From the NCBI RefSeq assembly GCF_001898175.1, contig NZ_MKTH01000004.1, positions 257,534 through 321,533 on the forward strand: 64,000 nucleotides of DNA. The letters run 5' to 3'. Below the pieces are notes generated by a model. That model was not told where the DNA came from. It was given only the letters and a program-made list of their open reading frames with translations, and made no database searches. Of this stretch, positions 22,070 to 47,427 are shown one piece after another (positions within the stretch are counted from its first letter, which is position 1; each line of letters starts with the position of its first letter). The DNA is from Cellulomonas sp. 73-92 (GTDB taxonomy: Bacteria > Actinomycetota > Actinomycetes > Actinomycetales > Cellulomonadaceae). The translations under genes and the position numbers were made by a program.

Positions 22070-22107
22070 CGACCTCATCGTCGAGGTTGTGAATTGCATC
22101 GTGAGGG

Positions 22108-22136
22108 GTGCGCCCGACTGGACTCGAAACAGCGGC
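22108..22136. repeat. attL: displaced tRNA-Arg 3' end
   Basis: The sequence matches 47354-47382 over 29 bp with one mismatch (position 22129, A instead of C). It corresponds to the T-arm and 3' acceptor strand of the tRNA, but no tRNA body is attached on this side. Confidence 0.9.
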
Positions 22137-22255: not shown

Positions 22256-22292
22256 AAGCATGCGTGCGCATGAACCGTCGAAGGTGGGTGCG

Positions 22293-23408
22293 ATGGCCGG
22301 ACGGCGTGGCTTCGGAGGCGTGCGCAAGCTCCCGTCGGGGCGGTACCAGGCCTACTTCGGGGTGCCTGGCTCGGGGCAGGAGCGGGTCAACGCCCCGACG
22401 ACGTTCGCCACCAAGAAGGCGGCCGACGTCTGGCTCGCCGAGCAGCAGACCCTCATCGAGCACCGCAAGATCAACCCCGAGGCGCGGCTGATCCCGTTCG
22501 AGGACTACGCCCGCCGGTGGCTGCGGCAGCGCCGGCTGAAGATTCGCACGCGCTCGGACTACGCGAACAAGATCGAGCACGTGCTGATCCCGCACTGGGG
22601 CACGACCGCGCTGGGCGCCATCCAGCCGGAGGCGGTGCGCTCCTGGTACTCGATGCTGGCGCCGGATGCCCCGACGCAGCGTGCGCGGATCTACGCGCTG
22701 TTCCGCACCATCCTGGCGACAGCGGTCGACGACGGGCTCCTGGACGGCAACCCGTGCCGCGTGAAGGGCGCCGGTCAGTCGCCGAAGCCGAAGCACGCCG
22801 TCGTGATCGCCACCCCGTCGGAACTGGCGACGATCGAGCAGGAGATGCCCGAGGGTTACCGGCTGATGGTGACCCTGGCTGCGTGGTGCTCGCTGCGGTT
22901 CGCCGAGCTGGACGCCCTGCGCCGCAAGGACATCCAGCTGTGGGACGACCTGGTGGACGGCCGGTCCGTGCGGCGCTGCAAGGTCCTCGTCGTCCGCAAC
23001 GCCAACTGGGACCACGGCAGAGTCCACTTCGAGACGCCGAAGACGGATGCCGGCACCCGGGAGGTGACCGTGCCCCCGCACGTCATCCCCGCGATCGAGG
23101 CGCACCTCGAGCGGATCGGTTCGAGCCCGGACGCGCTGTTGTTCGCCCGGCCGGACGGTCTGCCGGTCTCGCGGGAGAGCCTGCGGAACGTCTTCGAGAA
23201 GGCCCGCGTGGCCGCAGGCCGGCCCGACCTGCGGTTCTACGACCTGCGGCACACGGGCAACACGTACGCCGCCGTGGCCGGGGCCACGCTGAAGGAGCTC
23301 ATGGAACGGGCCGGGCACACCACGGCGGCGATGGCGATGCGCTACCAGCACGTGGCCGAGGGGCGCGACATCGCCCTGGCCGAGCGGATGTCCGGGCTGG
23401 TGCTGTAG
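22293..23408 (+). CDS. int: Tyrosine-family site-specific integrase
   Basis: This 371-residue phage-type recombinase probably inserts and excises the element at tRNA-Arg. It has an AP2-like arm-binding N-terminus (GGVRKLPSGRYQAYF...NAPTTFATKKAADVWL) and a SAM-like core-binding domain near residues 70-150. The catalytic domain has Arg in CSLRFAELDAL, HxxR-region DLRHTGNTYAAVAG, GHTTAAMAMRYQH and the nucleophile Tyr in RYQH. The start is ATG at 22293; an in-frame ATG at 22260 overlaps putative arm sites and lacks an RBS. It is encoded just inside attL and runs convergent with the AbiE-like toxin gene. Confidence 0.93.
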   Translation: MAGRRGFGGVRKLPSGRYQAYFGVPGSGQERVNAPTTFATKKAADVWLAEQQTLIEHRKINPEARLIPFEDYARRWLRQRRLKIRTRSDYANKIEHVLIPHWGTTALGAIQPEAVRSWYSMLAPDAPTQRARIYALFRTILATAVDDGLLDGNPCRVKGAGQSPKPKHAVVIATPSELATIEQEMPEGYRLMVTLAAWCSLRFAELDALRRKDIQLWDDLVDGRSVRRCKVLVVRNANWDHGRVHFETPKTDAGTREVTVPPHVIPAIEAHLERIGSSPDALLFARPDGLPVSRESLRNVFEKARVAAGRPDLRFYDLRHTGNTYAAVAGATLKELMERAGHTTAAMAMRYQHVAEGRDIALAERMSGLVL

Positions 23409-25537: not shown

Positions 25538-26731
25538 TCAGACTCCGCGAAGGGCGAGGCTCGCGAGTTGCTCGACGTCGCGCAGCAACTCGCTGGGCTT
25601 TCTCGATACGTCGAGCGGCCACTGGACGATGTCGATCTCGGTGTTCCGGATCCGGTGGCGGGATGGCGCCGCACCCTCAGCGCGAGAACCGGCGTAGACG
25701 AGCCAACCGCGTCGCAGGCCGAGAGCCGTGCAGTACGCATGGACCTGGTAGAGGTCCGCCTCGGGGTACCTGCCGTCTGCGGTGCCGAGCTTGTACTTCG
25801 CATCAAGGACGATCACGGGAATGCGGTCGATCGTGTGCACGACGTCCGGCCGGATCGGAACGCGTCTGGCCGTATCGAGGAACGTGCGGAACTGTGACTC
25901 GGTGTGCCCGCCTGGGTTCAGGTGGGCTAGGGCTTCGCGCAGCGCCACCGTCACGAAGTCCTCGAAGACCGTGGCCATGTTGACGACGAACGCTGCAACC
26001 GACGCGTCACCGGCGTTCGTTGACAACCCGACGTGGCGCAACACCAGCTCGGACAGCCGAAGCACTGGCTGATAGCGCTCGTTGAGCCGGGACGGACGCC
26101 ACTCGGGCAGCGGCGCGCCAGGCACCAGCACTCGCACGCCATCAAGTCGCGCTGCGAGGTGACCGAGGCGCCGGTGGAGCCCGAGAGGGAGCCGCGGCAC
26201 CTGCGTCATGCGGACGAGTGCAGAACGCAGGATCCGGTTCTCGGCGATGTCGCCCTGGTACTCGTCGTACGTCACATCGAGCGGCACGAGGATGCCGGGA
26301 CGACGGGCGATCTGGTCGGTCATGCGGATGCGCCCACGGACCACGGCAAGCGAGTCCTCACGCGTGACATAGCCCTGGAGAACGCCGCGACCGAGGGCTC
26401 GCTCGGCGAGCCGAGCGAGTGTCTCGGCTACCGCCGGCCAGAGTCCCTCATCGGCCAGCCCTGCGATCTCCCCGAGCACGAAGCCGGGGTCCTTCGCGTA
26501 GCCGAGCATGAAGAGCACCGACGAGAAGCTGGCCTTCGGACGCACGACCAGGTCGAGGTCGCCGACGCGGACGGCACCAACGGTGTTGGCCACCGGCAGC
26601 AGACGCCAGACGCCAGGGCGCTCGGGTCGTACTTCGACGATCGAGAGAGCCGCGAGTGTCGCGGCCTTCAAGTCGTCGAGCTCGACGAGCGTTCCGGCGC
26701 GGTCGTTCTCTGCCAGTTCGACGCGGCTCAC
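25538..26731 (-). CDS. mcrC: McrC-type nuclease subunit of a modification-dependent restriction system
   Basis: This 397-residue protein carries the McrC core. A PD-(D/E)xK nuclease site near residues 300-320 reads RPDVVHTIDRIPVIVLDAKYK, with the catalytic Asp and DxK. The preceding DEYQGDIAENRILRSAL block is typical of McrC/DUF2357-like proteins. It partners with McrB, encoded just upstream with a GTGA overlap, to cut DNA containing modified bases. It is the last gene of the nine-frame defence operon. The GTG start at 26731 is fixed by the overlap. Confidence 0.88.
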   Translation of the reverse strand: MSRVELAENDRAGTLVELDDLKAATLAALSIVEVRPERPGVWRLLPVANTVGAVRVGDLDLVVRPKASFSSVLFMLGYAKDPGFVLGEIAGLADEGLWPAVAETLARLAERALGRGVLQGYVTREDSLAVVRGRIRMTDQIARRPGILVPLDVTYDEYQGDIAENRILRSALVRMTQVPRLPLGLHRRLGHLAARLDGVRVLVPGAPLPEWRPSRLNERYQPVLRLSELVLRHVGLSTNAGDASVAAFVVNMATVFEDFVTVALREALAHLNPGGHTESQFRTFLDTARRVPIRPDVVHTIDRIPVIVLDAKYKLGTADGRYPEADLYQVHAYCTALGLRRGWLVYAGSRAEGAAPSRHRIRNTEIDIVQWPLDVSRKPSELLRDVEQLASLALRGV

Positions 26732-29292
26732 GGCAGGTCGACGTCACCCTCGCCGCCGGGCAGCGCGTTCTGAACCGGTCCAGCACCACGTGTCTCGACG
26801 ACCATGGTGGTGGTCAGACGTGAGCGCAGCCTCGCGAGGCCGAACCGTTCGCGTACCTGGGCTCGGTCGAGCCGGCCGTAGTAGTGCTCTTCGAGCAGGG
26901 GGAGGATGTCGTAGTCCCAGATCCGTTCGAGGCCCTGTTCGGTGTCGGCGTCGTCGCGCATGAGGTACGACGGTCCGATCTGGAAGTCGCGGTCGTCGGT
27001 GCCGATCTGGGCGTTGAGGGCTCGCAGCAGGTCGGCACGCCCACCGTCGCGGTGGTTGGCCGCCAGCCAGTTGTCGAGCAGGCTCGCGACGGGCTCACTG
27101 TCCGGGTGCATCTCGATGAACGAGAACCGGCGACGGATCGCGGCATCGACCAACGCGATGGAGCGGTCGGCCGTGTTCATCGTCCCGATGATGAAGAGGT
27201 TCTTGGGAAGTCGGAACTCGGCCTCGGGCGAGTACTGGAGTCCGACGTACTCGTCCCGGTACTCCAGGAGGAAGTACAGCTCGCCGAACACCTTTGCGAT
27301 GTTGCTGCGGTTGATCTCGTCGATGATCAGCACGTACGGGACGCCGGGATCCAGGCTGGCGGCGGACGCGATACGACGAAGGGGGCCCGGCTGAAGCTCG
27401 AACGCGAGCCCCGTCTCGCCTTGCACCCGCGGCCGGAACCCTTCGAAGAAGTCCTCGTACGCGTACGACGGATGGAACTGGACCAGCCGCACGGCGTCGT
27501 CGCTCGCGACGTAGCGAGCGACCTTCCGGGCCAGGTACGTCTTCCCGGTCCCTGGCGGGCCGTAGACGATCACCTGTTGGCGGCTCTCAAGGACGCCGAT
27601 GAAGTCGTCGAGCCACTGCCTGTCGAGATGGAGGGAAGCGGCGAATTCGCTGGTGGCGCCCTTCAGCGGCGGCGTCGAGCTCGTGGGCAGCACAACCGGC
27701 TCCGGCGTCGACTGCAGTGTCGTGACGGTGGAGACGGGGAAGAGCTTTTCGAGCGCACCGCGTCCCTCGGTGAGGTCAATGACCGTTCGCGACGTGGCCC
27801 CCAGTAGTCCGAGAACTGGCAGCGGAAGTGTGGCGACGGCGATGGGATCCGGCAGCCAGTCGACAGAGCGACGCAGCCGAGGTTCGTCCGGGCAGAACTC
27901 GGGATCACCAGTGATGCGGCCGAGCCACGCCTGCTCGTCGTGGCGGGCGACGACGACATCGTCGACCTGCATGCGGGACAGGAAGGCGAAGTAGTCATCG
28001 GTCAGGTACAGGCGTTGCGCGTAGTCGACATGCTCGTATCCAGCGTCGACGGAAACGCGGACGGTCTCGCGTGGAGCTCCGGCGGTCAGCGGAGCCAGGT
28101 GACTCGCAGCGAGTGAGACGAATCCCTCGTTGCGCCAGCGCTCGATGAGCTCGATGCCCGCGGGTTTCGTTCGCACGGCCCAGGCGCGGTCGCCGGCGTC
28201 CTTCGGTGGGTTCCACGACGCATACCACGGGTCGGTGTACCAGTCGACGGACTCGTTCCCAACCGGGTCGCTCTCCAATCGGGAACGGATTGCGAACAGG
28301 TCGCGGTCAACTGACTCGAGACTGGTTCCGCTCGGAGCCCCGATGACGTGCGCAAACGCGTCACGAATCCGACGCTTGTGGTCGTCGTTGACGATGTTCT
28401 CGAAGACGTCAGGGAACGCCATGAAGACGAAGGCGTTCCGCATCATCGGCAGGTAGTACTCGACGCGGCCTGCAACGTCACGGAACGCCCACGGATCCCG
28501 ACGAGCCGATTCGCGCTCCGCGCCGGTGAGTCCGTTCCACGTGACTGTGAAGTCACACAGCCAGACGATCTGCTGCCACGCCGCGCCGTGCCATCCACGT
28601 CCCCCGTTGAAGACGCCGTGTGACGTCAGCCCCTCGCTGATTGGCGCCGGGATGGAGACAGGCTCCTGCATCAACGTGAGGACCATCTCGACGTACTGGC
28701 GCCGCGTGTCGGGTCGGAGGTCGGCGACTGGGATGGATCGCAGGTACACGGCCTCGGCGGCGAGCAGCAGCACATCCCTCGGCGCGCCAGTGAGCTGAGA
28801 TCGGAATCGGTCCCACCACGCACCCTTGCCCGTGTCACCTTCTCCGAAGATCGCGTTCCGGAGCGCGGTGGCGTTCTCCGCGGTCCAGATGCGGCGCGAA
28901 GGATCGAGCGTGGACAGACCATCACCCAGGAGGTGCGCCAGCACCACGCGAGCGGCGGCGGCTACTGCGGCAACCTCCTCCTGCCGGCGACGGGGCTGGA
29001 CGGAGGGGATCGGGTTCACGGGCAACCGTAGGCAGTTGGGGCACCACCGGGGGTCGACGGGCTCGTCGGGCGCCTGTCGCCACGCTTCGATGACCTCGTC
29101 CCGTGTGCGCGGCTCGACACCGACCCGCGGCTCGTGGAGGCAGTCGGCGGCGTGCATCAGGTGCGAGTCCCGCTTGTAGACGTACCCGGCCGGTGAGTCC
29201 GCAAGCTGGTATTCGGCGCCGCCGAACAGACGTTCCGTGCCCGGGATCGGCAGGTATGCGCGGTGGCCGGCCGTCGGCGCGTCGGAGCTCAT
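26728..29292 (-). CDS. mcrB: McrB-type AAA+ GTPase with extended sensor N-terminus
   Basis: This 854-residue protein has an AAA+ motor at about residues 560-800. Walker A is YGPPGTGKTYLARKV (near 574), Walker B is LIIDEINRSNIAKV, and the McrB signature is GTMNTADRSIALVD near 704. The N-terminal 550 residues are unusual. Residues 30-80 contain histidines and cysteines with a CPNC pair. A segment near residues 420-480 (DDYFAFLSRMQVDDVVVARHD...WLGRITGD) resembles PUA/EVE-like modified-base readers. It would power cleavage by McrC at modified phage DNA. The ATG overlaps the darG stop (ATGA). Confidence 0.87.
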   Translation of the reverse strand: MSSDAPTAGHRAYLPIPGTERLFGGAEYQLADSPAGYVYKRDSHLMHAADCLHEPRVGVEPRTRDEVIEAWRQAPDEPVDPRWCPNCLRLPVNPIPSVQPRRRQEEVAAVAAAARVVLAHLLGDGLSTLDPSRRIWTAENATALRNAIFGEGDTGKGAWWDRFRSQLTGAPRDVLLLAAEAVYLRSIPVADLRPDTRRQYVEMVLTLMQEPVSIPAPISEGLTSHGVFNGGRGWHGAAWQQIVWLCDFTVTWNGLTGAERESARRDPWAFRDVAGRVEYYLPMMRNAFVFMAFPDVFENIVNDDHKRRIRDAFAHVIGAPSGTSLESVDRDLFAIRSRLESDPVGNESVDWYTDPWYASWNPPKDAGDRAWAVRTKPAGIELIERWRNEGFVSLAASHLAPLTAGAPRETVRVSVDAGYEHVDYAQRLYLTDDYFAFLSRMQVDDVVVARHDEQAWLGRITGDPEFCPDEPRLRRSVDWLPDPIAVATLPLPVLGLLGATSRTVIDLTEGRGALEKLFPVSTVTTLQSTPEPVVLPTSSTPPLKGATSEFAASLHLDRQWLDDFIGVLESRQQVIVYGPPGTGKTYLARKVARYVASDDAVRLVQFHPSYAYEDFFEGFRPRVQGETGLAFELQPGPLRRIASAASLDPGVPYVLIIDEINRSNIAKVFGELYFLLEYRDEYVGLQYSPEAEFRLPKNLFIIGTMNTADRSIALVDAAIRRRFSFIEMHPDSEPVASLLDNWLAANHRDGGRADLLRALNAQIGTDDRDFQIGPSYLMRDDADTEQGLERIWDYDILPLLEEHYYGRLDRAQVRERFGLARLRSRLTTTMVVETRGAGPVQNALPGGEGDVDLP

Positions 29293-30353
29293 GCCGCCAC
29301 CCACCGCTCGTCGCGCAGCTGGTCCCACGCGATCTCGATATGACCGTCCGTGAACAGCTCCCGCTTGCGGCGCGACCATTTTTGGACCCGTCGACGGACG
29401 TCGGCCAGGTCAGCCGGCGCGGGGGACTCGTGTGTGGCCACCCAGTGCACTGTCGCGAGGAGTTCGGTTCCGTACATCGAGTCGAAGCCGTCGACGAGCT
29501 CGAGGACACGCGCCATGCGCGCCTGGGTATCGGGGTGCTCTGCGAGCACCGCTTCGGCTTCCTCTGCGGCTCCGGGGAGGAGAGTGATCGGCTCGGCGTC
29601 GATCACCTTCGCACTGGCGTCGCCGTAGCCGGTCAGGTACGAACCCTCGAGCTCGCGCAGCACGTGTCGCAGGTTGTCTGCGTACGGGCCGTAGTGGTGT
29701 CGCTGGTACTGCAGTCGCAGCGGCTCGCCGGCCTCTTGGAGAAAGTACATGAGCTTCTGAACCTCGATGAGCGAGGCACCGACCGCGGTTGTGAGGTAAC
29801 GCGCCAGAAGCCCGACGAGGGCGGCACGCTGCGGTGTCAGCGGCTTGCGCTCGGCCGGCCGCGCCATGTCCGCCGCGGCAGGCGCACCGTTCGGCTCGTA
29901 AAGCAGCACCCGCACGTCCGCCACCTCGTCGAGAGCGGCGACGATCCGCGGCTTGACGAGCCGCCAATCCAGGCCGCCGCTGCCGGCACCGAGCGGAGGA
30001 ATGGCGATCGACGAGATCTCGCGCTCGCGGATCACGCGGACGAGGTCGACGAGCCCGGCGTCGACGAACTCCAGCCGCGACGGGGCACGCCAGTGCCGCT
30101 TGGTCGGGAAGTTGATGACGTACCTCGGCCCGGACATCGACCCCGTGGGCCACACGTGCATCCGGCCGACCTCGACCTCGCCGGCTTTGCAGGCAGCAAC
30201 GTACGACTCGAACATCGCCGGGTACGCGCGGCGGAACTGCAGGGCGATGCCCTTGCCCATGACACCGACGGTGTTGACGGTGTTGACGAGCGCATCGACG
30301 TCTGCGGCGAGCAGGTTGCCGCGAGCCTCCTCGATCATGGTCTGCCCGATCAC
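29289..30353 (-). CDS. darG: DarG: macrodomain DNA ADP-ribosylglycohydrolase antitoxin
   Basis: This 354-residue protein has an N-terminal macrodomain (EARGNLLAADVDALVNTVNT, GVMGKGIALQF, and PPLGAGSGGLDWRLVKP with the catalytic Lys). A C-terminal DarG-specific domain near residues 175-260 (LIEVQKLMYFLQEAGEPLRL followed by HHYGPYADNLRHVL) neutralises DarT by direct contact in known systems. The macrodomain removes ADP-ribose from thymidine in DNA. It follows darT with a 3-nt gap. The start is GTG at 30353, or ATG at 30338. Confidence 0.93.
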   Translation of the reverse strand: MIGQTMIEEARGNLLAADVDALVNTVNTVGVMGKGIALQFRRAYPAMFESYVAACKAGEVEVGRMHVWPTGSMSGPRYVINFPTKRHWRAPSRLEFVDAGLVDLVRVIREREISSIAIPPLGAGSGGLDWRLVKPRIVAALDEVADVRVLLYEPNGAPAAADMARPAERKPLTPQRAALVGLLARYLTTAVGASLIEVQKLMYFLQEAGEPLRLQYQRHHYGPYADNLRHVLRELEGSYLTGYGDASAKVIDAEPITLLPGAAEEAEAVLAEHPDTQARMARVLELVDGFDSMYGTELLATVHWVATHESPAPADLADVRRRVQKWSRRKRELFTDGHIEIAWDQLRDERWVAA

Positions 30354-30356
30354 CCC

Positions 30357-31001
30357 TCAGAAGTACCAGCTACGTCTGACATGGACGGGCGGGACATGCG
30401 CGGCGCCGACGAGGACTTGTTCAACGAGGTCCTTGCGTTGCGCGTCGAACACACCCACGGTCAGTATGGCGTTCCAGGGCACGCCCCGATGGACGAGGCA
30501 CTCCGCCATGCGGCGCTCCTTGCGATCGGGGTACTCCGCCGTGTTGTTCCAGTAGGTCTCGCGCATCAGGCCCCAGTCGATGAAGCCGCCGGCCGTCCAC
30601 ACGGTCCGGTCCGCCGTGAACTCGGTGTAGCCGAGCACGGCGTTGCGGTCCGTGAACACGAGGTCGGCGCCGAAGTCCTCGAGAAGCTCCACCGTGGTGC
30701 CCAAGTAGACGAGGTCGCTGGTCCGTCCTTGGAAGGTCAGGACGTTTCCGTGCGAGATCGAGTAGAGCATGGGACTGCGTGGTGCGAAGTAGAACGGCAC
30801 GTAGTCGCCAACGGTGCCCCGTGGGCCCACGGAGACGGCCCGCCTCCGCCTCCGCCCCTTGATCTCGCGGTCCCCAGCCTCCCGCACGACGAGCCCGCGG
30901 GCTTGCACTTCGGTATCCGCGATGAGGCCTTCGCGCACGATCGACGGCAGGTGGTCGAGGTGCGTGAAGTGGTAGAGCCACGTCGGTGTTGGCGGGGGCA
31001 T
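30357..31001 (-). CDS. darT: DarT: DNA thymidine ADP-ribosyltransferase toxin
   Basis: This 214-residue DUF4433 protein uses NAD+ to ADP-ribosylate thymidines in single-stranded DNA, blocking replication of host or phage. Signatures are [19 protein letters not shown] (NAD site), [17 protein letters not shown] and the catalytic Glu167 in [14 protein letters not shown]. All key residues look intact, so an active toxin is expected. It is encoded before its antitoxin darG, in the order seen in known DarTG loci. Its start lies 7 nt after the second methylase C-terminal cassette, so it belongs to the large defence operon. DarTG pairs also act as abortive anti-phage systems. Confidence 0.94.
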
Positions 31002-31008
31002 CGTGGGG

Positions 31009-31881
31009 TCAGCTCGACTCGCGCGCGGGGTGGCGGGGACCCAGGCCCGGGGGCGGGTTGAGGATCGTCTGATACGCCGTGCCGGTGTCGATCGCGCGCT
31101 GCATGGCGTCGTGGACCTCGAGGATCACGCGCTTGGTGCGGTACTCGCCGTGCGCCACCTCGTCCTTGCGCCGGACGATCGGGAACGTCTCCATGATGTA
31201 GTCGACGTCGTCGCGCGCCACGCCATATAGGTGGAAGAAGGCGGCATCGAGTTCGGCGCGGATCAGGCCTCGGCGTTCAATGTCCCACCGGAATGGTTCG
31301 CCTTGGTCGCCCAGAAGTCTTGCGGCCGGCGCCAGCCTCTCCGACGTGTAGAGCAGCTCGCAAAGCCGGGATCCGAACCAAGCCGTCCCCGACTCACGCG
31401 TCCACGAGATGAGTCCAGTGATCTCGCGAGGCTCGGGTGCCACCAGTTGCGCCATGACAGAGAACTGAAGGTGCATTCCCGTGAGTTTCTGTCGTACGAC
31501 GTAGTCGAAGACGAATGAGTTGAGGAAGCCTGTGGCGATGAGCGAATTTAACCCGGAGTTGCCTGCCAGGAAGTAGTCGTAGTTTCCACCGCCCGCGATT
31601 CCGTCCGTTGCTGTCGCGATCGCGGTGCGGATGTCCGTGGAGCGTGCGATACCACGCCAGACCGTAGCCCACGCTTCATTCCATCTGCCATTCAGCGTGT
31701 CCGCAGCGCTTGACTCGGGAACCCAATACCGAGGCTCTACCTCGAAGCGAGGGTCATCCTTCTCCTCGTCGGTTGCGTCACGAGTCGAGCCATCAGATTC
31801 ATATGTCGCCCACCGGTGATCGAACTGATGGAGGAGTTTTGATTCGTAGAGCGGGAGCATGCGCTCGGGGGCTTCCGTCAT
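31009..31881 (-). CDS. Second copy of the methylase C-terminal (recognition) module
   Basis: This 290-residue protein is homologous along its whole length to the 274-residue module encoded just upstream. Conserved ends are [20 protein letters not shown] and [11 protein letters not shown]...[10 protein letters not shown]...[11 protein letters not shown]; the middle is divergent. It corresponds to the C-terminal domain of Eco57I/PglX-like methylases, which in characterised relatives carries target recognition. Its ATG overlaps the upstream stop (ATGA), so it can be translated as a free subunit. It lacks any methylase motif. It could be a stand-alone specificity subunit or a donor cassette for recombination. 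Base composition is visibly less GC-rich than flanking genes. Confidence 0.75.
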
Positions 31882-32702
31882 GCGGGGATCCTCCTCGGCC
31901 GCGGGGCGTGGCGGGGGCCAGCACCCGGGGCGGGATCGAGCGACGACTGGAAACGAGTGCCGGTGGCGATGGCGGTCGACATCGCGTCGTACGACTCGAG
32001 GATCAGGCGCTTGGTGCGGTACTCGCCGTACGCGGCCTCGTCCTTTCGGCAGACGATCGGGAACGTCTGCATCACGTAGTCGACCTCGTCGCGCGGCAGG
32101 CCGTACAGGTGGAAGAACGCCGCGTCGAGCTCGGTCCGCAGCATCGCGCGCCGCTCCTCGTCCCACACGAACGGCTCACCGTCGTCGCTGAGGTCTTCGG
32201 CCAGTCCCCGCATGTCGTAGGCGGTGTAGCTGAGCTCGAGCACGTACGTCAGGATCCACTCCCGAGGCGTCGCGGGGAGCCATGCGACGGGACGCTCCAA
32301 GAGCCCCGCGTTGAGCGTTGCGATCTGCTTGACGATGAAGAAGTTGAGGCTGGTCGCGCTGACCGACTGGCGGGCCACGTAGTCCGTGGCGAAGGAGTTC
32401 AGGATGGCGGCGAGGACAGGACCGCCGACGGTGAGCATCAGCGGGACTTTGTTGCCTACCGCGCTCATCGGAAAGAGCGGCGCGATCAACGTCCGCTCGT
32501 CAGTGGCGCGCGCGATGTCGCGCCAGCCGAGGAGCCAGGGCTTGTCCCAGCGGTTTCCGAGGGACTTGGTGACCTCGTCGGCGTGGACCCAGTAGCGGGG
32601 GAGGACGACGAATGACGGGTCCACTTTCTCGGCGGGCGTCGCGTCGCGGACCGAGCCGTCGCGCTCGTACGTTGCCCAGCGGTGGTCAAACTGATGCATC
32701 AT
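31878..32702 (-). CDS. C-terminal domain of the methylase, separated by the G-tract frame
   Basis: This 274-residue frame begins [20 protein letters not shown] and ends with the family's conserved C-terminal block (TFPIVCRKDEAAYGEYRTKR). The part just upstream in the same frame (HASFLPLYEAK) runs back through the G-tract in the methylase coding sequence. With 11 or 14 G it would be the natural C-terminus of that protein. At the present 13 G, its ATG (32702-32700) overlaps the methylase stop TGA (32701-32699). Reinitiation could therefore make it as a separate chain. Confidence 0.85.
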   Translation of the reverse strand: MMHQFDHRWATYERDGSVRDATPAEKVDPSFVVLPRYWVHADEVTKSLGNRWDKPWLLGWRDIARATDERTLIAPLFPMSAVGNKVPLMLTVGGPVLAAILNSFATDYVARQSVSATSLNFFIVKQIATLNAGLLERPVAWLPATPREWILTYVLELSYTAYDMRGLAEDLSDDGEPFVWDEERRAMLRTELDAAFFHLYGLPRDEVDYVMQTFPIVCRKDEAAYGEYRTKRLILESYDAMSTAIATGTRFQSSLDPAPGAGPRHAPRPRRIPA

Positions 32703-35700
32703 CTTGGCCTCGTAGAGCGGGAGGAACGAGGCGTGCCCCCCCCCCCCCGCTCATTTGCGCTGTTCGTCGGCCGGACGAAGACGTTGCCTTCCAGCACCCA
32801 GCCCTCGGCCTCGAGCTCGTCGCGCGTGTGGAACAGGTGCGAATCCGACGTCATGTTGAAGAGTCCCTGCATGAAGGAGACGCCCCATGGGTTCCCCGCC
32901 GGGTCGCCGGCGGCGACGAGGCGCTCATTGATGAGAACGGGGACACGTCGGTAGATGCCGAGTGTGATCTCGGCGTCGCGGCGGGTGCGGAATATGGGCA
33001 GTGTTCCGGTATTCGGGTTGAGAAGCGTGATCTCCTCGGGCGTCATCGTGAAGCGAGACGACGGGATCTCGCTGGCGTCGTGGAGGAAGAACGCGAACTG
33101 CGCGACCTTCGTCCTGCGGGCCGAACCGCCCAGTGTGAGCAGGCAGAACTTGTACCGTGAATCGACTGCCTGGAAGATTGGCGCACGGTTCTCGAAGTCG
33201 TAGAGAGCTCGGACGCTCGAATTCTCGACGAGGTCCCGGAAGAAGTACTGGGTGGTCGCGTCGGTGGCAATCCCGGTCGGCACGATCACGCCGGTCTGGC
33301 CCGACGCGGCAGTCAGCGTCCGGAACAGCTCGGCGAAGAGGGGGTCCGTCTTGACCCGGCCGCGACCGGTCAACGGGTAGACGCCAGACTCTGCGGCGAA
33401 GTGCCGCACGCAGTCGATGTGCCTCTTGTCGGCGGTGTACTGCGCGTACAACTGCGGGTCGTCGTGCTCCAGAGCCTCGATCAGGCGTTTCCGGCGGGCC
33501 CCCGCGGCGGAAGCAATCTCTGGATCTTTGGACGCGAAGTACTCCTGCTCCTTGAGCTCGATGTGCTCCCATGGCGGGTTGCCGAGCACCGCGTCGAAGC
33601 CGCCGATCCAGCCTGCCGGGCCTTCGGGACCTGAGGGCCGGTCGAATACCTCGGGGAACTCCAGGTGCCAGTGGAAGAACCGGTATTCATTGGCCAGCCG
33701 CTCCACCTCGTTGCGGGTGGCTTCCAGGCTCGCCGCGTCGGGATCGGTCTCGAACCGGCGGACGATCGCGGTGGTCGGCGGCTGGGTGACGTGCACGCTG
33801 CTGGCCGTGGCTTGGCCGAGCGGCCAGACGAAGGCGGCGACCCACGCGTCGGCGTGGACCTTGTGGTGCAGGTACTCCGGTGACCGCTCGTACTCGTGCC
33901 AACGACGCGCCTGGGTCCGAACGGACGCGGCGTCGTCGAACACCGCGAGGAACTCCGCGCGCGCGTCGCGGAACGGGCGCGCCCTGGCCGAGCCGAAGTC
34001 GAGCTCGAGGACGTCCTGACCGCCACCGTCTCGGCCGCGCTCGGCCTGGTTGCGGCGCTTCACCGCGGTTGCGACCTTCTTGTCGTCGCCCTCCAGGGGT
34101 GTGAAGGCCTCGTCGGGAACGCCGGCGGCCAGCAGCGCGGGCGTGGTGCCCAGCAGCGAGTTGCCGACGCGGATGCGCGCGTCGAGGAAGCCCAGCGCCT
34201 TGCCGGGTTCGACGGCCTCGAGCCAGAGTGAGACCTTCGCCAGCTCGGCGGCGAGCGGGTTGACGTCGACGCCGTACACGCAGCGGGCGACGACGTCCCG
34301 CAGCGCGTGACGAACGTCGTTCGGCGTGGGCTCGTCCTCGCCGGAACGGATCGCCGCGAGGCGGCGCGCGATGCGGCGAGCGGCGGCGACGAGGAAGTGG
34401 CCGGAGCCGCAGGCGGGATCGCAGACGCGCAGGTTGAGGAGTTGGCGCTCGGCATCGGCACCGTCGGTTGCCGCCGCTACGGCGTCATCTATGACTGGAT
34501 CCAACGCGGAGTCCAGCAGCGCCGAGACAAGGGCCGGGGGCGTGTAGTAAGAGCCGGTCGTCTTGCGCTCGTTGCCGCTCAGGCGCTCGTACTCGAACCG
34601 GTGCTCCGTGACCGAGACTCGCGGGACCAGCTCGAGCAGCGCCTCGTACACACCGCCGAGCTCCTCGGACCCGAGGTTGCGGTAGTCGACCTGCTGGAGC
34701 CGCTGCTCGCCGGTGGGCAGCCAGGCGAGGTCGCGGATCGCCTGGAGCATGTCGTCGTTGGCGAGTTCAGCGTCGAGGAGCGGCTCGCCGAGGCCATCCT
34801 CGGGGTCGAAGAGGCCGCCGAGGGCCGGGAGTCCGAGCGCCGGCTCACCGTCACCGCCGAGCGCGCGCAGCACCAGCCGCTGGCCGCGCCACAGGTCGGC
34901 GTAGGCGGCCGAGCCGTGGCGTTCGCGCGCCTGGCGGCGCAGCCGCTGCGTGCCCAGGAAGTCCGTGTAGTGCTGCCGGGCCAGCGGGCCAGCGTTTGGG
35001 TCGAGCAGCACGTCGCGGTCCTCGGTGACGAAGAGGAAGAGCAACCGGTACACGAGGCGCAGCAGCTGGCGGTGGTAGTCCTCGCGTCGCAGCTTGCCGG
35101 TGGCGAGCAGCTCGCGAAGGTGGGTGTTCTCCGGGTGGGCGATAAAGCCGGTGCCCAGATGCTGCAGGGCGTTCTCGACGCCGTCGCGGAGCCGTTCCAG
35201 CGCACGAGCGCCGGCGTTGACCGAGTCGGAGCGCCAGGCCTCGAGCCAGCAGTCGCTCGCCGTCGCCGAGCTGCCTTCGGCGGTGGGACGGATCTCGAGC
35301 CGGGACTGGTGGCACGTCTCCCACAGGAGGAGGAACTCTGCGAAAAGCTCGCCGTCGAAGATCGCCTCGAGGTCGAACTCGACGAACGCCGAGCCAGCCA
35401 GCGCGGTGGAGTCTCGGAGCAGGCGCAGCCTCAGGCCGTTGGAGACGATCGCCCACAGGTGCTCGTCGGTCCGGTTGAGCAGCTCCTGGACCATCGCCTG
35501 GGGTGCGCGGGTGGCTCCGGCGACGCCGGCGTGGCGCCGGTCGAGGTCGACGCCGGGACCAAGCAGGTGGATCGGGATGTGCTCCCAGACGTGGGAGATG
35601 GGGTACGTCTGCTCGCCCACCGTGATCCCGCCGGTGCGAACCGGGACTCGGCCGTAGCCGAGCTCCTGGAGCAGCACAAGGAGCCAGCGCTCGCGGACCA

Positions 35701-35944
35701 GTGCAGCACCGGTGCCGGCGAAGCCGCCCGGCTCCTTCGCCTGGGAATCGCGCCACGCCTCCCAGGCGCCGACAAGGTAGGTCCATGACCGGTTCGCAGC
35801 GTCGCGGATGCTCTCGCGGCCGGGCAGGTGGTAGGAGGCCGGGGAGCGCGACTCGGTCGTGCCGATGTCATCGCTGGCGATGCGCTGGAGGAATGTCGCC
35901 GGGACGATGCCGCCCTCGACGTGGATCGCCTGGAACGCCGTCAC
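32699..35944 (-). CDS. Eco57I/PglX-like DNA adenine-N6 methyltransferase (DrmMI-like), frame ends after G-tract
   Basis: In the given frame this protein has 1081 residues. Motif I DPACGSGHFL is near residue 510, followed by YGVDVNPLAAELAKVSLWLE. Catalytic motif IV GNPPWEH is near residue 788. The N-terminal ~450 residues are helical, as in PglX and DrmMI. No N-terminal nuclease motif is evident, so it is probably a methylase rather than a type IIG enzyme. After the G13 tract it reads eleven unrelated residues and stops at 32699, lacking the C-terminal recognition domain encoded next. With one more G it would be 1355 residues. It likely marks host DNA for the helicase-based system. Its GTG start overlaps the SNF2 stop (GTGA). 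Confidence 0.9.
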   Translation of the reverse strand: MTAFQAIHVEGGIVPATFLQRIASDDIGTTESRSPASYHLPGRESIRDAANRSWTYLVGAWEAWRDSQAKEPGGFAGTGAALVRERWLLVLLQELGYGRVPVRTGGITVGEQTYPISHVWEHIPIHLLGPGVDLDRRHAGVAGATRAPQAMVQELLNRTDEHLWAIVSNGLRLRLLRDSTALAGSAFVEFDLEAIFDGELFAEFLLLWETCHQSRLEIRPTAEGSSATASDCWLEAWRSDSVNAGARALERLRDGVENALQHLGTGFIAHPENTHLRELLATGKLRREDYHRQLLRLVYRLLFLFVTEDRDVLLDPNAGPLARQHYTDFLGTQRLRRQARERHGSAAYADLWRGQRLVLRALGGDGEPALGLPALGGLFDPEDGLGEPLLDAELANDDMLQAIRDLAWLPTGEQRLQQVDYRNLGSEELGGVYEALLELVPRVSVTEHRFEYERLSGNERKTTGSYYTPPALVSALLDSALDPVIDDAVAAATDGADAERQLLNLRVCDPACGSGHFLVAAARRIARRLAAIRSGEDEPTPNDVRHALRDVVARCVYGVDVNPLAAELAKVSLWLEAVEPGKALGFLDARIRVGNSLLGTTPALLAAGVPDEAFTPLEGDDKKVATAVKRRNQAERGRDGGGQDVLELDFGSARARPFRDARAEFLAVFDDAASVRTQARRWHEYERSPEYLHHKVHADAWVAAFVWPLGQATASSVHVTQPPTTAIVRRFETDPDAASLEATRNEVERLANEYRFFHWHLEFPEVFDRPSGPEGPAGWIGGFDAVLGNPPWEHIELKEQEYFASKDPEIASAAGARRKRLIEALEHDDPQLYAQYTADKRHIDCVRHFAAESGVYPLTGRGRVKTDPLFAELFRTLTAASGQTGVIVPTGIATDATTQYFFRDLVENSSVRALYDFENRAPIFQAVDSRYKFCLLTLGGSARRTKVAQFAFFLHDASEIPSSRFTMTPEEITLLNPNTGTLPIFRTRRDAEITLGIYRRVPVLINERLVAAGDPAGNPWGVSFMQGLFNMTSDSHLFHTRDELEAEGWVLEGNVFVRPTNSANERGGGGTPRSSRSTRPR
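32736..32748 (-). repeat. Homopolymeric tract of 13 G in the methylase gene (phase-variation candidate)
   Basis: Thirteen consecutive C on the plus strand (G on the coding strand) lie near the 3' end of the 1081-residue methylase frame. Tract lengths of 11 or 14 restore an open frame into the downstream C-terminal module. A length of 12 leads to an early stop without the ATGA overlap. Homopolymer miscounting in the assembly is a possible artefact. Confidence 0.9.
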
Positions 35945-38790
35945 GCAGCACCGCCGGGCAGGTACACGTAGACGCCGAGCAGGTCGACGGGGAGCTGGGG
36001 GCTGACGTCGAGGCCGCGGATGCCCAAGCCGCCCGCGACGTCGCGGCCGCGCGCGGCCTGGCGCACCCGGGTGTGCGCATCGCGCAACTCGTCGGCCGCT
36101 CGCTGTGCCTCGGCGTCGAGGGCCGGAGTGAGCTGCGGCAGTGCGCGGAGTACCCCTTCGATGAGGCTGCGGGCGCGGTCCGGGGGTGTGTTGGCGGACG
36201 GTTGGGCGGTGAGCAGGGCATCGAGCTCGTCCGGCTCGAGCCACACCGGCCTTGTCGGGGAACCGCGGAACGCGAGCGTCCGCGCCTCCTCAGCGACCTC
36301 CGTGCGGGTGCCGTGGCGGCCAGGGAGGGTCACGTGCACCCGGAACCGGGCGAGCAGCAGCACCGTGAGTGCGTCGACGGCGTTCGTTGTCATGACGCCG
36401 GCGCGCCGCGCCGGGCGTAGTCGCTCCTCGAGGCGCTTGTCGAGGGCGCCGTCAAGGATGAAGCGAGCCAGGGCGCCGACCCGCTCGTCCGTGCGCACGG
36501 TGACGGCTGCGCCGCGCGGGGCCGGCAGGTCGCGGGCCCACAGGAGCGTGCCGTCCGAGCCGTTGAGGTGCAGCGCGTCGCGCAGCCCGACCGGGATCGA
36601 GTGGGCCTCCAGCACCAGGCCGGACGGGTCGTCGCGGATGGCGCCGTCGACCTCGGCCAGCGCGGTGCGGACGAAGCGCGCGACATCCTCCGGACGGCCC
36701 AGGCGGGAGCGGGCGGCGTCCACCTCACGCGCGACCTCGTCGGGCCGGATCGTTGCTTGGGCGTAGCGCGTGCGCGAGAGGCGCTCGGTCTCGGCTGCCG
36801 ACGTCCACGCGTCGTCGAGCTGCTTGACCACCGGGAATAGCTCGAGCTCGAGCTGTTCGCCTGAACCGCCGCGCAGCAGAACGCCTTCGAGGAGGGCCTG
36901 GAGCACGCGGTCGTTCGTGTCGTTGGGGACCGGGACGCTGATGCCGAGGTCCTTGCGGATCTGTGCGTGCTTGCGCAGCAGCGCGTTGAGCACGATCCCG
37001 TCGATGCCGTTGTCCTCGCCGTAGATTGTCACCGCCCGCACGATGTCCGCAGTCTGGCCGAAGCGGTCGACGCGGCCCTCGCGCTGCTCGTGGCGCGTGG
37101 GGTTCCACGCGAGGTCGTAGTGGATCACGGCCTGGAAGCCGTCCTGGAGGTTGACGCCCTCGGAGAGGCAGTCGGTGGCGACGAGCACGCGGCCGGAGTC
37201 GGCCGGTTGGTCGAGCAGGCCGTGCACGCGGGCGGAACGGTCGTCCGGGGCCAGCTCACCCGTAACGACCTCGACCGGAACGTTGCGCATCACCGAGCGA
37301 ATGTGCTCGGCGAGGTAGTGGGCCGTGGGGATGAAGCGGCAGAAGACGATTGGCGACACGCCTTCCCTCAGCAGGCCCCGCACCTGCGTGACCAGGGCGG
37401 CCAACTTGGCGTCGTCGTCGACGCGGAGGCCTTGGGCCTGGACCGCCAGGTCGCGGAGGATGCGGGCCTCCGGCGAGGAGTTGTCACCCAGGGTGGGGAT
37501 CGCGCCGGGAGCGGTGTCGTCGGCGTCGGTGGAGTCGTCCTCCACCTGGTCGAAGACGAGGGCGCGCCCGACGGCGTCGGCGGCCTCTCCGGACTCGGCC
37601 GCCGCGGCGGCCGAGCGGGCCACGAGGGTCGCGGCGGCGGCGGCCGGCGACGAGGCGATCGAGCGCAGCAGCGACAGGACCGACCACCATCGGACACGCT
37701 GTTGCAGAGTTGTGCCCGACCGGTCCCGGACCTGCCCGCGCGCGTAGGCGACGGCGTCGTCGAAGAACGTTCGGAACGAGGGGGACAGGCGGTACGGAAC
37801 CTCGCGCGTCTGGCGGTCGCTCGGGAACTTCGTGTCCTCGTGCAGGTAGGTGCGGATGTCCGCGCGGCGGCGCTGAACGAGGTGGGCGGCCAGTCGCTGC
37901 CGTGCCTCCTCCGCGCCGAGGTCCACGTCGCGCAGCGCGGGATCGAGGAGGCCGACGAGGTTGCGGAATGCGCCCTCGTTCCCCGAGTGGGGCGTTGCGG
38001 TGACCAGGACGAGGTGGCGGTTCTCGTCCTCGGCGAGGTCCTGGAGCAACCTGTAGCGCTGCGTGCGCCCGCGGCCGCCGGCTCCGGCGTCGTCGACAAC
38101 GCACGTGTGGGCCTCATCGACGACCACGAGGTCCGGGGCCGTGCGGAGGAACTCGTCGCGGCGGCGGTCGCTCTTGATGTAGTCGGTGGACACGACCGTG
38201 ACCGGGTAACGGTCGAAGATCGACTCGTCGTGCGTCAGGCCGCGCTGAAGCCGGCCGACGGTCGAGGCAAGGACGAGTTCCGCCTCCAGGGCGAACTTCT
38301 CGCGGAGCTCATCCCGCCACTGCTCGGCGAGCGCCGGCGGACACAGCACGGCCAGCCCCTTCGCCTCGCCCTGGGCCAGTAGCTCCCCGGCGACGAGGCC
38401 GGCCTCGATCGTCTTGCCGATACCGACGTCGTCGGCGATGAGCAGACGCGTGGTCTCCTGACGCAGCGCCATGAGGAGGGGGACGTACTGGTACGGGCGC
38501 GGGTCGACGGCCAGTGACGCGAGGGAGCGGAAGGGGCCGCCCGTCGAACGGAAGCCGATCCGGAGGGCGTCGCGGAGCAGTGCGGCCGAGCGGGCGTCGC
38601 CAAGGTCGTCCGGACCGGGAGTCGGGAACGTGGCGGACTCGACGGCTTCGAGCGCTGGCAGGACCCCGGCGCGGTCGGTGTCGCCGCCCGCCAGGGGGCG
38701 CAGGACGAGGAAGTCGTCGGCGCTCTCCGGCAGAACCACCCACTCCCGCCCGCGTGCGCGGACGAGCGTTCCCGGAGCGTAGGTGGGCAC
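35941..38790 (-). CDS. SNF2-family helicase (DISARM DrmD-like)
   Basis: This 949-residue SF2 ATPase has Walker A-type LLIADDVGIGKTIEAGL near residue 118 and DEAH-type LVVVDEAHTC near 220. Motif III is VTATPHSGNEGAF. The helicase C-terminal half carries FCRFIPTAHYLAEHIR, VLVATDCLSEGVNLQ and the arginine-finger motif NPTRHEQREGRVDRFGQ. A C-terminal region of about 300 residues has no recognisable motif. The family translocates on duplex DNA. In class 1 DISARM a protein of this type accompanies an adenine methylase. It starts with GTG, overlapping the preceding stop by 1 nt, and its stop overlaps the methylase start. Confidence 0.88.
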   Translation of the reverse strand: MPTYAPGTLVRARGREWVVLPESADDFLVLRPLAGGDTDRAGVLPALEAVESATFPTPGPDDLGDARSAALLRDALRIGFRSTGGPFRSLASLAVDPRPYQYVPLLMALRQETTRLLIADDVGIGKTIEAGLVAGELLAQGEAKGLAVLCPPALAEQWRDELREKFALEAELVLASTVGRLQRGLTHDESIFDRYPVTVVSTDYIKSDRRRDEFLRTAPDLVVVDEAHTCVVDDAGAGGRGRTQRYRLLQDLAEDENRHLVLVTATPHSGNEGAFRNLVGLLDPALRDVDLGAEEARQRLAAHLVQRRRADIRTYLHEDTKFPSDRQTREVPYRLSPSFRTFFDDAVAYARGQVRDRSGTTLQQRVRWWSVLSLLRSIASSPAAAAATLVARSAAAAAESGEAADAVGRALVFDQVEDDSTDADDTAPGAIPTLGDNSSPEARILRDLAVQAQGLRVDDDAKLAALVTQVRGLLREGVSPIVFCRFIPTAHYLAEHIRSVMRNVPVEVVTGELAPDDRSARVHGLLDQPADSGRVLVATDCLSEGVNLQDGFQAVIHYDLAWNPTRHEQREGRVDRFGQTADIVRAVTIYGEDNGIDGIVLNALLRKHAQIRKDLGISVPVPNDTNDRVLQALLEGVLLRGGSGEQLELELFPVVKQLDDAWTSAAETERLSRTRYAQATIRPDEVAREVDAARSRLGRPEDVARFVRTALAEVDGAIRDDPSGLVLEAHSIPVGLRDALHLNGSDGTLLWARDLPAPRGAAVTVRTDERVGALARFILDGALDKRLEERLRPARRAGVMTTNAVDALTVLLLARFRVHVTLPGRHGTRTEVAEEARTLAFRGSPTRPVWLEPDELDALLTAQPSANTPPDRARSLIEGVLRALPQLTPALDAEAQRAADELRDAHTRVRQAARGRDVAGGLGIRGLDVSPQLPVDLLGVYVYLPGGAA

Positions 38791-41700
38791 TAGGCCATCC
38801 TGCCGAAGGCGCTCGGGTTCGCGGCCACCAGCGCGCCGAGATCATCGCCGTCCCGCAGGTGAATCACCTGCCAGCCGGCGGCCAGCAGCGGCCACTCGTC
38901 CGGCTGGTGGCGCGAGAGGTCCTCGACGATCACCACGGCGTGGGTGCGGGGGAAGGCGAGGTCGACGGTGATGCCTTCGATCGCGACGTCCGCGGAGTCA
39001 GGCAGTGCCAGGCCCCGCAGCCCGAGCAGACGAACGAGTTCGGCGGCGCGGCCGGACAGCGGGGTCGGGGTGCGCGCCGGGGCGGCGGGAGCAGGATCGG
39101 CGCTTCCATCCCCTGCGGGGTGCGGGTCGTCGGGAGAGTCGGTGACCGTCGTCGCACGTGCGAGACGGAGCAGGGTCGGCACCGCCGACTGACGGTTGAT
39201 CGACTCGTGGTCTGACTGGTTGGAGTACGAGAGGAGGCACCGGTAGCAGCCACGGACGCAGGCATCGTCGTGCTCCCGGCCCGTGTCCGGATCGACGTGC
39301 ATGATCCGCAGCGCCTCCTGCGCCACCCGCGCCAGAGCGTCGGGCTCGCCGTGAAGCCGGCGCAGCACGCCAGCGCCGCCCTCTGCGGCCTCGACGAGGA
39401 GGAACCGCCCACGGTGGTCGTCGTCGGCGAGGATCTCGCTCGTCAGCTCGGAGTCCTCGAGCTGGAACACCGCCTCGATGCCCCGCTCGAGGGCGTACAT
39501 CAGCGTCTTCGCCTCGGACTCGTCGCGTTGGTCCTCCCACCGCAGCACCGCGATGTTGCGGCGGTCCTCGACGTACGGGATGACCCGCGCCTTGCGCTGG
39601 ACGTCGGCGGCGACCGGGGTGTCGTCATCGCCCTCAGGCGCGTCGATCGCCGCGGCTCTGGTGTCCGAGAGCCAGGTCCCCCTGACGGTGTCGATCCAGA
39701 AGCCGGGGGCGGTGCCGGGAGCGCGCCGCTTGGGGCCGGTGTTCGTCACGCGAAGCTCCGCGGCGTCACCGTATCGGAGGTCGAGCATCGGGACTCCGCC
39801 CTCCTGCGCCATCGCGTGGAGCACGCCCGATGAGCGCCCCTTCGGCTGGAACCGGTAGGACGTGACGAGGTCGAACCCCAGCCGCTGGCGTTCCTCCTCG
39901 TCGGCGGAGATGCGGTCGCGGCGGCGGGTGATGACGGTCTGCATTGCCAGCAGGTTCCGTGTCGGCTCGGCCAGCCGGGCGCCGCAGTTCTCGCAGACGT
40001 CTGTGCCCACCTGGCGGTCGTGGTGATAGTTGCAGCTCGCGCAGATGCGGGCCTCGGAGAGCGTGACGTTGCCGGCATTCGGAGCCTTGCCGTCAGCTGG
40101 CTCGTCCGATCGCGGCAGGTTGACGCGAATCACCTGGTAGCGGGCGCCTTCGTGGTAGACGAGCGCGTTCGGCCCGAACTCGCGCAGGGCCAGGAACCGG
40201 GGACGCTGCAACCACGTGGCGCCGGCACCCCGTTGCCCCGGCACGTAGGCGGCCAGAGGCAGGCGTGGGAACGAGTAGCCGGGGAGGAACCCCTCGGAGC
40301 CGAAGTAGCGGTATGGGTAGTAGTCACCCTGACCCATGGCCGACGACGAGTCGCTCTCGTTGAGGAGCAGGTCGCGCTGGCGCCGGGCCTCACGCTGGCG
40401 GTCCTCGGCCTGCTGGCGTTCCTTCTTGGGTAGGCTGGCGTCGGCGGACTGGCGATACGCGAGATCCATCTCCACCCGGACCGTCCGGTCGAGCGTCCGC
40501 CACCTCTCGCACGCGAGATCGAATGCGTGGGGTGCATCGGCCACGACGTCGTCGACCCAGACGGCGGACCACCACTGGGTGCGCTCGAGGTCCTCCCGGA
40601 GGGGGTCGAGGACGGCATGGGCGGCCGCAGTTGCGCGTGCGGCGAGGTCGGGCACCGCGAACGCCGCCTTGATGTCGGCATTGACGGGGTACCCGGGTTG
40701 GTCGATCTCGACGACGTGCTTCATCGACTGCCGCAGGTCAACGGGGGTGCAAGCTAGCCAGATGGCATGGACGTGTGAGCGGACGAGGTCCTCGTTCGCC
40801 AGGTCGAGACGGGGTGGCAGGACGCGGCCCGCGACCATCTGGTTGCTGCGCGCGAAGTAGTAGGAGTCGTGGGCGTTGCCGCTGGAGCAGTAGGTGACGA
40901 CGATTGCCGGCTGTCCCGACCGGCCAGCACGACCGGAACGCTGCGCATAGTTCGCGGGCGTCGGCGGCACGTTGCGCATCGCCACCGCGTCGAGCGAACG
41001 GATGTCGATGCCGAGCTCCATCGTCGGCGAGCAGTACAGGAGCTTCAGCTCTCCGCTGCGGAACTGGTTCTCGCGCTCCTCGCGGATCTCGGGGGGCACC
41101 TGGGCGGTGTGCTCGCGGGCGACGATGCCCGCCAACTTGGTGCCCGCCTCCCGGTACAGGTCGCGGAAGTAGGGGAGGACTCGCGGCGCTTTCTCTTTGT
41201 CGAGCGTGCGCCGCACGGGGTCGGGGGCACCGTGGTTGCCGTCGCCGGCCATCAGCCGGATCTGATGCGCTTTGAGGCGATAGCCGTGCAGCTGTCCGTC
41301 ACGGACGTCGGCCAGGAATCCGTTGGCGGCGAGCAACTTGACGAGCGAGTCGAGGACGTCGTTCGTCGTGACCCGGTCGATTCTCGGGTGCGCCGGATCG
41401 ACCGTGCGCGACAGCCATCGGCCATACGCGCCCTGGGCGGTCAGCGCGAGCACGTTGCGCGGACCACCTTGCGGTTGCGCTGCGAGGACGACGGTCCCCA
41501 GGTAGGGCACCTGCTCGGTGTCGCCGACTGTCCACACACCGACGAGGTGCTCGCGGCTGAGGATGCGCAGCTTGTCGATGTGCTCCTGCGAGAAGACGTC
41601 GGTGTCGATCGCGAGTACCCGCCGAAACTCGTCGAGGAGCACCTCGATGATCTCGTACCGCAGGTCGGGATCCGCGGCCCGCAGCAAGACGTGCGCGCTT

Positions 41701-43955: not shown

Positions 43956-44260
43956 GGCCTCGCTGCGCTGCCCGTCTCATGGATCTCCTGACGGCGCGCC
44001 GCCCGCGACCCCCGTGCGTCGAACGTACCAACGCCGAGCCGCTGAGCGTCGCAGAAGAGTGGGCGAATCGACGTAGGACGTGGCCAGTTGCGTTCTTCGA
44101 GGGGTCCGATCGCACCCGTGCCGTCGCGTGTTCGACGGCCGCTGCACACCTGTTCTGAGGAGGGGTGTGCGGTTCAGCTCGGTGTGACCGCTCGCAATGC
44201 CGCGCACCCGCTCGCGGGGGCAGGAGCGTTCGCTCACCTCCCTGGGGCGAGGAGGGCGTC
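43956..44260. other. 305-bp divergent intergenic region between helicase and relaxase genes
   Basis: No gene is visible. It must hold the promoter of the whole minus-strand defence operon; a weak TACGTT -10 candidate lies at 44022-44027 on the minus strand. It also holds the relaxase promoter and probably the element's oriT, since MobF relaxases usually act next to their own gene. A 7-bp inverted repeat GCACACC/GGTGTGC (44144-44150 and 44164-44170, 13-bp spacing) is a candidate nic-adjacent hairpin. Confidence 0.45.
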
Positions 44261-47353: not shown

Positions 47354-47382
47354 GTGCGCCCGACTGGACTCGAACCAGCGGC
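47354..47382. repeat. attR: core overlapping the 3' end of tRNA-Arg
   Basis: This copy of the 29-bp core forms the T-arm and acceptor 3' strand of the functional tRNA, so integration keeps the tRNA intact. Confidence 0.9.
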
Positions 47383-47427
47383 CTTCTGCTCCGGAGGCAG
47401 ACGCTCTATCCACTGAGCTACGGGCGC
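47355..47427 (-). tRNA. tRNA-Arg (anticodon CCG)
   Basis: The 73-nt cloverleaf has acceptor arms GCGCCCG/CGGGCGC and discriminator A. The anticodon stem-loop is TCTGC-CTCCGGA-GCAGA with anticodon CCG (reads CGG), and the T-loop is TTCGAGT. CCA is not encoded. Its 3' part is the integration site of the 25-kb element. Confidence 0.95.

Follow-up and report, generated by a model that had tools for sequence, protein, structure and literature searches.

In Streptomyces coelicolor, resistance is reported to be switched on and off by a change from 8 to 7 G in a tract within pglX (PMC4365076), and in the Helicobacter pylori Type IIG enzyme JHP1272/HP1353-HP1354 a homopolymer frameshift alters the specificity of an N6-adenine methylase via a C-terminal part resembling a target-recognition domain (TRD; PMC3936762). 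A poly-G tract in the specificity gene of NgoAV, a Type I system of Neisseria gonorrhoeae, toggles the product between a truncated and a fused form, which recognise different sequences (PMC9577141). In H. pylori, recognition is given in trans in the BcgI-like systems and also where one methylase has two alternative S subunits (PMC3936762). ARMADA Type I systems, as described in a recent preprint (Bell et al. 2025, PMC12458937), comprise a YprA-like helicase, a BrxHII/RapA-like helicase and a PglX-like methylase, in that order, the YprA-like helicase being further characterised by a BrxA-like insert, a CxxC barrel and its position in the YprA tree; ARMADA islands often lie within elements at tRNA genes, and protection against phage was tested for Type II systems of E. 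coli (PMC12458937). The subject of the present analysis is an operon of the former kind in a 64,000-nucleotide stretch of Cellulomonas sp. 73-92 (contig NZ_MKTH01000004.1, positions 257,534 to 321,533; hereafter the window), the defence methylase of which probably undergoes a phase-variable switch of specificity. The repeat, its phases, two recognition modules of one family and the independent start of the second module are all directly observed.

The repeat is a run of 13 G on the minus strand, owing to which the C-terminal module of the methylase (module 1) is in a different reading frame from the core. It is the sole run of 12 or more G or C in the whole genome (3,706,680 bases), runs of at least 9 occurring at two places only, and its presence at the junction exceeds chance expectation; a 9-G pattern counted within the window alone is less striking, since its five overlapping matches, all inside the tract, were reached in 6 of 100 shuffles. 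The core opens at a GTG (35944) that overlaps the stop of the preceding helicase gene as GTGA, and ends after 1081 residues at a TGA (32701-32699) overlapping an ATG (32702-32700), the first in frame with module 1 and placed within its conserved PLYEAKM, from which a frame of 274 residues runs to 31878. These recomputed frames agree with an initial annotation of the window, which had placed the tract just before the C-terminal module of a PglX-like methylase and predicted the two overlapping chains. Scripted changes of tract length bore out its further expectations: G14 and G11 give single frames of 1355 and 1354 residues, respectively, and at G12 the stop falls slightly later than at G13 (50 versus 37 nucleotides (nt) past the tract). 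Its broader proposition, that a phase-variable-looking tract at this module boundary is probably more than an on/off device, is also supported.

The decisive feature, absent from that annotation, is a second copy of the module (module 2) directly downstream. Module 2 is a member of a family of modules that elsewhere are fused to methylase cores. Its PLYE motif lies 27 nt after its start, that of module 1 lies 28 nt after the tract begins, and module 2 begins at the same protein boundary where the G tract cuts module 1. A 4-nt overlap between the module-1 stop and the module-2 start was detected by pattern at 13 loci, and the same overlap is present in L050, L056 and L223.

When relatives of the locus were compared, a simple repeat (G, C, CA, GA or ACAG) was found at the junction of core and module 1 in all 20 two-module loci and in none of the 124 distinct single-module loci. 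Fisher's exact test gave P = 1.4e-23 with relatedness ignored and with one single-module locus, L112, counted as carrying a repeat: it is the only one of the 124 with a repeat in the scored stretch, a G8 that lies 109 nt upstream, inside the core. The rule was derived from the first 11 loci and was obeyed by nine later two-module loci picked by module number, not by repeat. The association between repeat and second module is regarded as firm.

The sample, with one genome per species, was drawn from a core-based scan of genome contigs (433 relatives, the best 80 being retained), from module-based searches covering 396, 397, 293 and 394 genomes in partly overlapping draws, and from a core search covering 98 genomes, that of the window included. 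A single uniform script was applied to 156 rows, all positioned by BLAST of the modules: 20 two-module loci, 133 single-module loci (124 distinct and 9 duplicates) and three, L036, L077 and L086, unscorable at contig ends. The scored stretch comprised the 180 nt preceding module 1 together with its first 60 nt and was examined for runs of at least 7, dinucleotide repeats of at least 10 nt and longer units; second modules were sought in flanks of up to 8 kb at contig-scan loci and in the 1.5 kb behind the match at genome-search loci. Left out were nine matches without a locus, each within an open frame longer than 1300 residues, the distant matches L010-L034 and L124-L137 (except L136), and G224, where a detached second module is present on a contig that starts within module 1. 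A single-module copy in the L053 genome, which has no repeat, stands outside the 124; a same-genus genome, G034, carries the C. triticagri locus, and L007 and L104 are identical.

Several other arrangements were recorded in the course of this survey. L112 belongs to a Streptomonospora, with its G8 at about 11039 and seemingly a second full copy some 15 kb off in the genome. At the junction of L077 lies a CT repeat of 31 nt, within the last 60 nt of a contig that ends in module 1 with no second module in view; on another contig of the same genome (L215), a module fragment lies behind a YprA-like N-terminus and is followed by frames judged by eye to be DarT- and DarG-like. Each of the plasmid relatives L115, L116 and L119 has a single module that is not preceded by a repeat, and L117 and L118, on D. 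radiodurans plasmids, have two annotated methylase coding sequences, split in mid-gene and not at the junction, followed by an IS630 transposase. In L139, L221 and L222 module 2 is detached from module 1 by intervening genes that we take to be DUF1016/YhcG-like.

The repeat lies inside the reading frame and its alleles occupy different phases, as at a contingency locus. It is in frame at ten of the 20 loci, namely L043 (CA), L049 (G10), L051 (G9), L056 (C10), L065 (G10), L214 (G9), L219 (G7), L221 (AG), L222 (ACAG, 94 nt) and L223 (G10), and out of frame at the window (G13), L035 (G15), L050 (C11), L053 (GA), L057 (G8), L062 (G11), L217 (C11), L218 (G11), L220 (GA) and L224 (G10). Module 1 is intact in nine of these ten out-of-frame loci. 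By a tree of 93 cores, 6-7 changes are needed to explain the distribution of the two-module state, and supported branches force at least five of these; within the set of 20 loci the repeat unit has changed 8 times (GA and AG taken as one). L057 and L214 come from one Brooklawnia metagenome-assembled genome, which thus has two two-module loci, the G8 being out of frame and the G9 in frame; the recognition parts of the two loci differ in module 1 as well as in module 2.

Modelling predicts that module 2 folds alone as a TRD resembling those of M.BseCI, PglX/BrxX and CamA, the predicted fold being that of the recognition part of N6-adenine methylases. Sequence searches of solved structures gave no match at an E value of 1 or better with the modules, and with the fused relatives gave MmeI only (3e-4). 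The model of one fused relative, L051, is fair only (predicted local distance difference test score, pLDDT, 72.7; predicted template modelling score, pTM, 0.58); its fold resembles M.TaqI, CamA and BrxX, its junction is placed in a turn between two strands, and out-of-frame truncation is predicted to take away most of the recognition domain. Pairing of the Shine-Dalgarno (SD) sequence of module 2 is mostly good across the two-module loci, and low ratios of nonsynonymous to synonymous substitution rates (dN/dS) indicate that the module is under purifying selection.

On balance, with slightly less assurance than we attach to the existence of the switch, we favour a mechanism in which the repeat determines whether recognition comes from a domain in cis or from a spare domain in trans, with defence on in both states. 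Such an arrangement would have arisen, or been regained, several times within ARMADA Type I, the site being fixed and the repeats unrelated. The repeat would slip: when in frame, core and module 1 would form one chain in which module 1, in cis, would set the recognised sequence; when out of frame, the core would end near the module boundary and free module 2, translated from an independent start at that boundary, would dock in trans on the truncated core to give a second specificity. Slippage would exchange the sequence used for methylation and defence while the helicases keep an active partner, and the window, at G13, would be in the module-2 state.

A number of observations weigh against this mechanism. 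Eight of the nine later two-module loci come from one order, and the supported independent pairs number four, all concordant, which is below the reach of a sign test at 0.05; more weight attaches to the exchange of repeat kinds at a fixed place. The dN/dS estimates are rough, since several dS values exceed 1. An additional frameshift is present in module 1 of L224, and the core of L220 is open for just 417 residues ahead of the repeat. SD pairing of module 2 is weak (-6.1 to -7.0) in L035, L049, L062 and L065. An upstream G or GA tract can pair with the anti-SD sequence at least as well as a normal SD does, up to -16.1 kcal/mol in calculations where spacing was not weighed. An ATG stands just before PLYE in 16 of 19 first modules (the exceptions being the window, where the sole nearby ATG of module 1 is that inside PLYEAKM, L035 and L043), and because of this ATG and the tract/anti-SD pairing module 1 could also be translated as a free chain and act as a competitor.

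A specificity switch is nevertheless favoured over a plain on/off switch, because no junction repeat was found in single-module loci and the start of module 2 corresponds to the point at which the out-of-frame core terminates. That the out-of-frame methylase is simply dead, module 2 being unrelated or serving the in-frame enzyme only, would accord with the phase variation of S. coelicolor pglX via its G tract (PMC4365076) and with the predicted cost of truncation to the recognition domain; it is unlikely, however, in that on/off control would serve the 124 single-module loci equally well and that the site of the repeat is the boundary of the module and falls outside the catalytic part. The single-module loci do provide homologues with an uninterrupted gene and no repeat, of the kind that the initial annotation had named as telling against a switch; since the second module is absent there, they delimit the switch and do not refute it. 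That module 2 is instead a donor cassette recombining into module 1, with the repeat a mere gate or boundary mark, is suggested by module ends that are conserved around exchanged middles, as in Brooklawnia (nucleotide identities of 96/66/95% along module 1 and 99/50/83% along module 2), and by a 289-nt repeat, 75% identical, in the window. We nonetheless consider it improbable, as a silent donor would need neither an independent start, nor SD pairing that is mostly good, nor purifying selection, and the differing repeat units speak against a recombination scar.

The initial annotation itself had proposed split and fused forms of one module, with module 1 restarted out of frame at the overlapping ATG as a separate chain working with the core, and had presented the ATGA overlap in the window as seemingly new. 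Stop/start overlaps just ahead of PLYE in L053, L057, L062 and L220, together with G or GA tracts able to pair with the anti-SD sequence, lend this some plausibility, but the window is alone among the ten out-of-frame loci in having its core frame terminate at that ATG, where a restart would drop the conserved PLYEAK and SD pairing is weak (-5.9). ATGA falls at the conserved K-M codon in 16 of the 19 tested first modules having KM, and because the motif PLYEAKM[IM] forces it, the overlap does not count as a sign of a designed restart; the ATGA was accordingly rejected as a conserved device, being mostly a by-product of the motif. With the constant presence of a second module with its own start at 20 of 20 loci also left unexplained, the restart is judged a shade less probable even than the cassette. 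Long G runs are slippery, and transcriptional or ribosomal slippage on the tract could yield both products in every cell from unchanged DNA; the CA, GA and ACAG repeats that occupy the same place are DNA-slippage repeats and are not known as transcriptional or ribosomal slippery sites, which makes this very improbable. Least credible of all is an assembly error or decaying pseudogene: homopolymers are error-prone and L224 and L220 have further breaks, but the repeat recurs at 20 of 20 loci in five kinds, with module 1 intact in nine of ten out-of-frame loci and dN/dS low.

Table 1. Features of the methylase locus and adjoining genes in the window.
Feature	Position	Strand	Basis
YprA-like (DruE-like) DEAD/DEAH helicase with MrfA Zn-binding domain	38790..43955	-	profile matches
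BrxHII/RapA/DrmD-like SNF2 helicase	35941..38790	-	profile matches
Methylase core, PglX-like N6-adenine, 1081 residues at G13	32699..35944	-	frames, profile matches, relatives
G13 tract at core/module-1 junction	32736..32748	-	sequence, genome-wide run count
Module 1, C-terminal target-recognition module, out of frame at G13	31878..32735	-	frames, relatives
AGGAGG ribosome-binding site of module 2, 8 nt ahead of ATG	31890..31895	-	sequence
ATGA, module-1 stop/module-2 start overlap	31878..31881	-	sequence
Module 2, free-standing recognition module, 290 residues, intact	31009..31881	-	open reading frame, 49% identity to module 1, predicted TRD fold
DarT, DNA ADP-ribosyltransferase, start 7 nt after module-2 stop	30357..31001	-	profile matches
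DarG antitoxin	29289..30353	-	profile matches
McrB-like AAA protein (listed open reading frame; true start may be later)	26728..29379	-	profile matches
McrC	25538..26731	-	profile matches

On the minus strand the genes run in the order YprA-like helicase (1721 residues), BrxHII/DrmD-like SNF2 helicase (949 residues), methylase core, module 1, module 2, DarT, DarG, McrB and McrC (Table 1). The first helicase matched the PADLOC models DruE (best, 6e-96) and DrmA (1.3e-14) and Pfam MZB (3e-9), as a YprA-family protein most like that of Druantia; the second, BrxHII/RapA-like, matched the DpdE, DrmD and BrxH models of PADLOC, with NCBIfam DrmD and RapA below their cut-offs; and the core matched DrmMI (5e-64), PglX (8e-15) and Pfam Eco57I (3.5e-16), as a PglX-like methylase. 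These genes overlap and occupy 43955 to 31009 in the order YprA, BrxHII, PglX; on the evidence of profile matches, both the gene set and its order agree with ARMADA Type I. Both helicases are present in 17 of the 19 other two-module loci, the remaining two (L049, L214) lying on short contigs. DISARM, to which the initial annotation had likened the locus, was rejected as the system, as were Dpd and Druantia: neither DrmB nor DrmC, the separate genes of DISARM Class 1, was among the matches listed for ten window proteins, the DrmA match is weak, and the MZB domain is fused within the 1721-residue helicase. The PADLOC model PDLC02853, 'DpdE', covers the SNF2 helicase over its full length (957 bits), and automatic Dpd calls may be misled.

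The operon is flanked by a tyrosine integrase (22260-23408), a TrwC relaxase (44165-47071) and a tRNA-Arg (47354-47427), a 67-nt copy of sequence from the tRNA-Arg region, 80.6% identical, occurring at 22070-22136; on account of these features the island 22070-47427 looks like an integrated mobilisable element. DarT and DarG are also found downstream of module 2 in L053, L056 and L062, and DarG in L043, while DarG occurs in one of 70 other contig-scan loci (three of the 70 not scorable for modules). McrB matches were recorded at 17 of the 19 other two-module loci (not L053 or L056) versus 33 of the 70 other contig-scan loci, with flanks of differing length.

Phase-variable defence genes have mostly been taken as on/off bet-hedging, and the present locus points to changed recognition with defence kept on. 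If this is true, ARMADA gains a testable route to altering its self/non-self mark, two methylation motifs per locus are predicted, which would be visible by long-read sequencing, and switching would also alter genome-wide adenine methylation, constituting a phasevarion in actinomycetes. The locus also suggests that solitary genes for recognition modules located behind methylases of this kind encode specificity subunits. That different repeat kinds have replaced each other at one fixed site is natural evidence for selected slippage there.

The three genes of the window and their order are those of ARMADA Type I (PMC12458937). The main text of that preprint contains no occurrence of 'phase varia', 'homopolymer' or 'slipped', and its sections available for comparison describe no regulation and, unlike the window, no second recognition module. 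In a limited survey of open-access literature, no report was found of a repeat at the junction combined with a separate second recognition module. S. coelicolor pglX resembles the window in being an actinomycete phage-defence methylase of PglX type with a G tract, and in the relevant part of its description no second module appears (PMC4365076). JHP1272 likewise combines an N6-adenine methylase, a homopolymer frameshift and a TRD-like C-terminal part; its first tract is described as on/off and its second as adding a small extra domain behind a protein of normal length (PMC3936762), a pattern that the window does not share, since its repeat stands ahead of the recognition module and a separate gene with its own start encodes the alternative one. 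In NgoAV the subunit affected is HsdS, and hsdS2 by itself reportedly encodes no active protein (PMC9577141), whereas in the window it is the methylase that is cut, and behind it lies a complete second module that has a start of its own. In the BcgI-like systems and the methylase with two alternative S subunits, as described, the subunits are always separate, with no repeat-set choice between cis and trans at a junction, unlike the mechanism favoured here. Frameshift change of specificity is thus already known; in ARMADA Type I it would take the form of a choice between a module in cis and one in trans.
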